Positions 21,714 through 22,154 of a stretch of 64,000 bases of DNA are shown here, one piece after another. Both the position numbers and the translations under genes were made by a program. Source of the stretch: an uncultured Clostridia bacterium (GTDB lineage: Bacteria > Bacillota > Clostridia > Christensenellales > CAG-917). The notes under the pieces are model-generated. The model saw only the letters and a list, made by a program, of their open reading frames with translations. It was not told the DNA's origin and did no database searches. The stretch spans positions 1 to 64,000 of the forward strand of contig CALVKR010000006.1 of NCBI GenBank assembly GCA_944332995.1. Direction: 5' to 3'. Each line of letters opens with the position of its first letter. Position 1 is the stretch's first letter.

Positions 21714-21742
21714 GCTTCTCCTCCTAAAATTTAAAAAACAGC

Positions 21743-21798
21743 ATTTTAATCAAATATTTTTAGCGTCGTAAGGAGTATTTTAATTAAGTTTGTCGAAG
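21743..21798 (-). promoter_or_regulatory. spo0A proximal promoter with upstream 0A box
   Basis: Minus strand TTACGA (21766-21771), a 17-base spacer and TAAAAT (21743-21748), 30 bases before the ATG. About 20 bases upstream of its -35, the opposite strand carries TTTGTCGAAG (21789-21798), matching the Spo0A recognition core TGTCGAA. This suggests autoregulation. Confidence 0.6.
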
Positions 21799-21846
21799 GG
21801 TAACGGTAATTTCATAAAAAAATAAAAATTTGCCTTTCTGCGTATT

Positions 21847-21875
21847 ATTATATCACCATTTTTTCGCTATGGCAA
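21847..21875 (-). promoter_or_regulatory. spo0A distal promoter
   Basis: Minus strand TTGCCA (21870-21875), an exact 17-base spacer and TATAAT (21847-21852), giving a leader of about 125 bases that includes the 0A box. Confidence 0.75.
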
Positions 21876-21890
21876 TTTTTTGAAGAATAT

Positions 21891-21940
21891 TTTCACCCTT
21901 TTTTCACTTTTTTTTCACCTATTTTTCACCATTTTTCGTC
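21891..21940. repeat. Helically phased TTTTTCAC tracts upstream of spo0A
   Basis: Five T-tracts each end in CAC or CGT, with CAC at 21894, 21905, 21916 and 21927 and CGT at 21937, so the period is 11, 11, 11 and 10 bases. Phased A/T-tracts of this spacing bend DNA. Confidence 0.75.
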
Positions 21941-22016
21941 AAAATTTTCCTTATTTCGTCAATTTTTTTATTTTCTCGGTTTAGGTATATTTTCCGCCGA
22001 TTGAGCCACCATAATA

Positions 22017-22043: not shown

Positions 22044-22154
22044 ATGGCAAACACGAGTAAATCTGTTAAGTCACAAAGAAGCCCCAAAAACTGCGGCAGC
22101 AAGTCTGTGAAAAACTGCAAAAGCGGTTGCGGCTGCGACAAGGCTTCAAAATAA
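22044..22154 (+). CDS. 36-residue Lys/Ser/Cys-rich protein
   Basis: An ATG with AAAGGAG upstream opens a 36-residue frame, followed by a strong terminator. The product is basic and holds four cysteines, including C-G-C (KSGCGCDKASK). It is divergent from spo0A. A CATAATAT upstream of the leader hairpin resembles -10 sequences of mother-cell sporulation sigma factors, but no matching -35 at the right spacing was found. A spore-associated role is only a guess. Confidence 0.65.
   Translation: MANTSKSVKSQRSPKNCGSKSVKNCKSGCGCDKASK

Follow-up and report, generated by a model that had tools for sequence, protein, structure and literature searches.

The spo0A locus and its promoters

The window, i.e., the whole 64 kb stretch of DNA analyzed here, belongs to a genome of 1.54 Mb assembled in 12 contigs (G000). 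Its features are collected in Table 1, together with two loci found on other contigs of the same genome. The central gene encodes Spo0A: it scores 265 bits against the TIGR02875 equivalog model (cut-off 200), and the recognition helix, SKVERAIRHAIEV(S/A)W, is the same as in its relatives. For comparison, 110 spo0A upstream loci were fetched, nine of them duplicates, leaving 101 distinct regions, 26 from the same family and 75 from outside it. The named relatives are mostly Clostridia metagenome assemblies, including Candidatus Limadaptatus and Christensenella sp., and eight loci (L154, L155, L157, L161, L165, L167, L168, and L169) were assigned to the family by Spo0A identity of at least 62% and not by a tree. 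Divergently from spo0A, on the plus strand, there is a small ORF (22044–22154) with its own ribosome-binding site that codes for a cysteine/lysine-rich product of 36 aa; searches of Pfam and NCBIfam gave no match for it.

Table 1. Features of the spo0A region and associated loci (window positions unless a locus is given).
Feature	Position	Strand	Remarks
spo0A, receiver and Spo0A_C domains, 251 aa	20958–21713	-	TIGR02875 265 bits; PF08769 138 bits; PF00072 73 bits
Proximal promoter TTACGA-N17-TAAAAT	21743–21771	-	8/12 matches; weak -35
0A box TTTGTCGAAG, core TGTCGAA 21791–21797, orientation opposite to spo0A	21789–21798	+	core position conserved
Distal promoter TTGCCA-N17-TATAAT, extended TG	21847–21875	-	11/12 matches
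Four GTGAAAA units, exact 11-bp direct repeats (proposed operator array)	21890–21929	-	plus strand TTTTCAC at 21890, 21901, 21912, 21923
Canonical TGACGAA core in the orientation of the array, 10 bp away from its first unit	21935–21941	-	
Second canonical TGACGAA core, upstream of the array	21955–21961	-	
Receiver-less Spo0A_C protein, downstream of spoIVB	L304:551–877 (G000:C2, about 140547–140876)	minus	PF08769 E about 1e-20
Phage-like operon: terminase, P22-like portal, head protein, internal virion protein, DUF7934, two holin-like genes	L289:4385–14075 (G000:C1, about 275384–285074)		

A previous reading of this DNA, made from the sequence alone, had proposed two promoters on either side of a 0A box, and this arrangement is backed by conservation. 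The distal promoter is present and strong, sharing the best score among the nine matches of a 2.5 kb scan in which shuffled sequences gave 4.6 on average. The proximal one is there as a sequence, although it is weak and falls under the threshold of the promoter scan, so that the dual promoter holds by sequence with a proximal member that is poor by score. Across the family a -10 with TG, which looks of the sigma-A type, is found 30–34 nt before the ATG in 16 of the 26 upstream regions. The 0A box was found as described, its core lying about 78–84 nt upstream of the spo0A ATG, and the position is kept in 17 of the 26 family members, where a GACAAA core (TTTGTC on the other strand) is located at -81 to -91. 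The longer TTTGTCG is present in 14 of the 26 (2.2 in shuffles), and the full 0A core in 10, which is not clearly above chance (5.7 in shuffles). Outside the family, canonical TGNCGAA was detected in 62 of the 75 promoters vs. 12.3 in shuffles. The two perfect TGACGAA cores just upstream of the array had gone unmentioned in the sequence-only reading.

Autoregulation by Spo0A is plausible here, in part by inference, and the downstream 0A box would provide the usual feedback by Spo0A~P close to the proximal promoter. In Clostridioides difficile, Spo0A binds in vitro to the region upstream of spo0A, whose 0A box, at -75, is about as far from the ATG as here (PMC3485338). However, the box of the window is inverted relative to the gene, and the available part of that report mentions no GTGAAAA array. 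The spo0A gene of Bacillus subtilis (Pv, Ps, and boxes 0A1–0A4) likewise has two promoters with Spo0A boxes between and around them; those are 0A boxes, and the downstream promoter depends on sigma-H (PMC12090719). Unlike B. subtilis, the window has a separate 11-bp GTGAAAA array abutting the upstream promoter, and a proximal promoter that looks of the sigma-A type.

The absence of spoIVB beside spo0A, which had been mentioned along with a suggested switch-like control, was confirmed: spoIVB is located at G000:C2:141706–142605 and spo0A on C6. This is the rule in the family, the two genes being on different contigs in all 17 genomes in which both could be placed. Being a family-wide rearrangement, it provides no evidence for switch-like control. 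In representatives of four other families (G028, G039, G024, and G037) a second Spo0A-like gene is found directly beside and after spoIVB (L296–L299), with TIGR02875 scores of 232, 253, 350, and 150 bits, respectively, which suggests paralogy and relocation rather than a special mode of control.

The GTGAAAA array and its distribution

Directly upstream of the distal -35 is the stretch that had been described as five T-tracts repeated every 10–11 bases. The T-runs exist, but their spacing is uneven: the centers of runs of at least four T, between 21876 and 21948, are separated by 13, 10, 10, 12.5, 10, and 12.5 bp. The strict 11-bp period belongs to TTTTCAC, and the tracts are better read as GTGAAAA repeats 11 bp apart, with TTTTCGTCA next at 21933 and an extended box consensus of AAATTGKTGAAAA. 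Dinucleotide shuffling of the 350-nt region, repeated 5000 times, never produced three 11-bp pairs. Taken as a whole, what had been observed at this promoter was partly confirmed, and the interpretation given to it is partly supported.

The array is a conserved feature of the family and is found at two genes. Tandem KTGAAA units 11–13 bp apart are present in 20 of the 26 family spo0A promoters (shuffle mean 0.18, maximum 2), six being without them, and in none of the 350-nt regions of the 75 promoters from outside (shuffle mean 0.40); one outside locus, L185, has a single 13-bp pair at -356, beyond the limit of the counted regions. The spacing is mostly 11 bp (9 pairs) or 13 bp (20 pairs), the latter prevailing in genera g4, g7, and g8. 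As the units were collected by searching for KTGAAA, part of the invariance of this core comes from the search itself. In 14 of the 26 family members the best distal -35 reads TTGAAA, which is either the repeat unit or a copy of that unit. A search of 43 family genomes with the 18-mer TGAAAAWWATTDKTGAAA gave 26 matches, against none with the reversed control; by coordinates and tblastn these matches were distributed as 18 at spo0A, 5 at a gene that we call reg, and 3 elsewhere (2 of them within coding sequence). In G000, the 11-bp array with up to three mismatches was found only at spo0A and at C1:66604–66655, which is the reg promoter. The spacing at the two genes is the same within a genome: 11 bp in G000 and 13 bp in G008, G014, G018, G056, and G017.

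Other sites and roles were considered and rejected. The promoters of spoIIA and spoIIE had the tandem array in 0 of 30 and 1 of 30 cases, the region being less reliable for spoIIE since the automatic choice of its start was often doubtful. Control of the divergent gene was discarded because that neighbor varies among genera and the spo0A side is constant, and a structured RNA leader because there was a single chance-level Rfam match, far under the gathering score. In the open-licence literature searched we recognized no description of a GTGAAAA array, of curved DNA at spo0A, or of a sporulation-linked capsid operon.

The reg gene and a phage-like operon

In G000, reg codes for a protein of 163 aa beside a ylbJ homologue, with a weak match to sigma-70 region 4 that is under the Pfam cut-off in this genome and above it in G001. 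We found reg in 34 of the 43 family genomes; three g3 genomes have no full Spo0A and are also devoid of reg and SpoIVB. Tandem KTGAAA at 11–13 bp is present in 8 of 30 reg promoters (shuffle mean 0.12) and missing from the other 22. In 14 of the 30 loci (L054–L083) there is, besides any upstream array, an inverted unit (TTTCAM on the coding strand) that immediately precedes the ribosome-binding site, 22–24 nt upstream of the reg start codon. A different element, CATA...TTGAC, mostly in the form of TGACATAA followed by TTGAC, is shared by 29 of the 30.

In 9 of 12 family genomes a TGACATAA-like element is found again in front of the terminase gene of the phage-like operon; G009 is without it, and in G000 and G007 the chosen terminase start is too far upstream for the element to be judged. 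In the three operon stretches that were scanned, the DNA upstream of the terminase gene had no KTGAAA array. Of the 43 family genomes, 35 have a single copy of the terminase, and the three g3 genomes without Spo0A have none. The operon is compact and may be a domesticated capsid or a gene transfer agent. In families f5, f28, and f9 (L272–L280), reg homologues lie about 1 kb from a terminase-like gene in most loci, and several of these loci have AACAAATGTTC or GAACATATGTTC boxes that we take to be LexA-like.

Nature of the array

We give somewhat better than even credence to the reading of the phased T-tracts as an operator, i.e., tandem (G/T)TGAAAA boxes that a protein would bind cooperatively, setting the distal promoter, and that would be common to spo0A and reg. 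At spo0A the array would reach to, or almost to, the -35 of the distal sigma-A promoter, occupation of the tandem boxes by the DNA-binding protein would set the rate of that promoter, and the same array would control one other gene, reg, beside ylbJ. Candidates for the binder would be Spo0A~P, a receiver-less Spo0A paralog encoded beside spoIVB, and a regulator of the OmpR type.

Operators of the OmpR/PhoB type are made of 6-bp direct repeats with a period of 11 bp, e.g., TTNACA-N5 repeats for PhoP, or the consensus TGTWAH-N5. The direct repeats of the window have this same 11-bp period, its TTCACC-N5-TTCACC resembles the first consensus, and a variant array in G005, GTGTAAAAATGGTGTATTT, resembles the second. 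A PhoP- or WalR-like response regulator as the reader is nevertheless unlikely, given that the 10–11 bp direct repeats do not extend across the orthologues: in g4, g7, and g8 the spacing is mostly 13 bp, which is unusual for this family of regulators, and two genes, spo0A and reg, would make a small regulon for PhoP or WalR.

Intrinsic curvature, or an UP element aiding RNA polymerase at the distal promoter, seems to us quite improbable as the role of the tracts. They do lie directly upstream of the -35, and in the window helical phasing goes together with strong predicted curvature: a wedge model gives about 103 degrees across 75 bp, the 99.9th percentile of the 64 kb. The bent DNA that had been proposed upstream of the distal promoter is therefore predicted locally; however, it is not kept in seven of the eight relatives tested, most of them with 13-bp spacing, where the curvature percentiles were 38, 15, 95, 69, 69, 56, 23, and 42, i.e., an ordinary 15th–69th in all but one. 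What the relatives keep is the GTGAAAA box, and we prefer an operator array over a bend because the box is conserved and the predicted bend is not. In addition, the box recurs at reg in inverted orientation, and structural DNA alone does not explain a conserved G and T at fixed positions.

That reg itself, as a sigma-region-4-like autoregulator also controlling spo0A, binds the array is very improbable: the array does occur in its own promoter, the box looks like a -35 hexamer (TTGAAA), and reg is missing from the g3 genomes that lack full Spo0A, but nearly all reg promoters share the different element described above, which recurs before the terminase gene where the stretches scanned hold no array, and genomes outside the family have reg homologues but no array at spo0A. 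The TGACATAA-type element is the likelier candidate for a reg site.

Candidate readers of the array

We infer that a protein binds the array and that its most likely reader has a Spo0A-type domain, belonging either to Spo0A~P or to the receiver-less paralog. This follows from the box differing from a 0A box mainly by the change of C4 to T, from the canonical TGACGAA cores that flank the window array, and from the reg promoters in which a canonical 0A box replaces the TGGTGAAA of sister species. The last case was found within one genus, where G046, G050, and G053 have TGTCGAA and G012 and G040 have TGGTGAA, at an equal distance from the reg -35 within 1 nt.

The array units are not 0A boxes in the strict sense (core TGTCGAA), as their position 4 is T and only 37 of 56 carry G at position 2. 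In C. difficile, G2, C4, and G5 are the contacted positions of the 0A box, and the change C4A weakens Spo0A binding about tenfold (PMC3485338). Since C4 is contacted and the Spo0A recognition helix is unchanged inside vs. outside the family, boxes with T in place of C4 should be poor Spo0A sites. For this reason variant 0A boxes read by Spo0A alone were not accepted, and are kept as a sub-hypothesis.

The receiver-less paralog has about 110–125 aa and a diverged helix, VEKDIQNAIS vs. VERAIRHAIE in Spo0A. Of the 14 family spoIVB loci read, 13 have it as the neighbor of spoIVB, the copy of G006 being on another contig. Strong matches were obtained in most family genomes, including every array-bearing one that is at least 72% complete, and also in families f13 and f5; two array-bearing genomes of 64% completeness gave no strong match. 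Genera g9 and g6 and families f13, f5, and f7 have the paralog as well, although their spo0A promoters are without the array, and therefore its presence alone does not predict the array. Gut phages have truncated Spo0A homologues that, like the paralog, consist of Spo0A_C without a receiver (PMC10294663). In contrast to them, the paralog is chromosomal, with its place at spoIVB and its own helix.

In the most extended form of the argument, the paralog, kept at the ancestral spoIVB site with the full spo0A located elsewhere, would read the variant 0A array and control spo0A and reg, and reg would be a phage-type activator with its element before the conserved, chromosomal phage-like operon. We regard this complete chain as decidedly unlikely; if it held, entry into sporulation would be wired to a domesticated capsid operon.

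The proposed operator array common to spo0A and reg is the most interesting part of the finding. The spo0A gene is the gate through which cells enter sporulation, and most of what is known about its control comes from Bacillus and Clostridium. Reg, the receiver-less paralog, and a single DNA box are directly testable in vitro, even though the organism is probably uncultured. A conserved second operator restricted to one family of gut Clostridia, and common to a phage-type regulator, would mean that this gate receives input beyond the classical 0A boxes.
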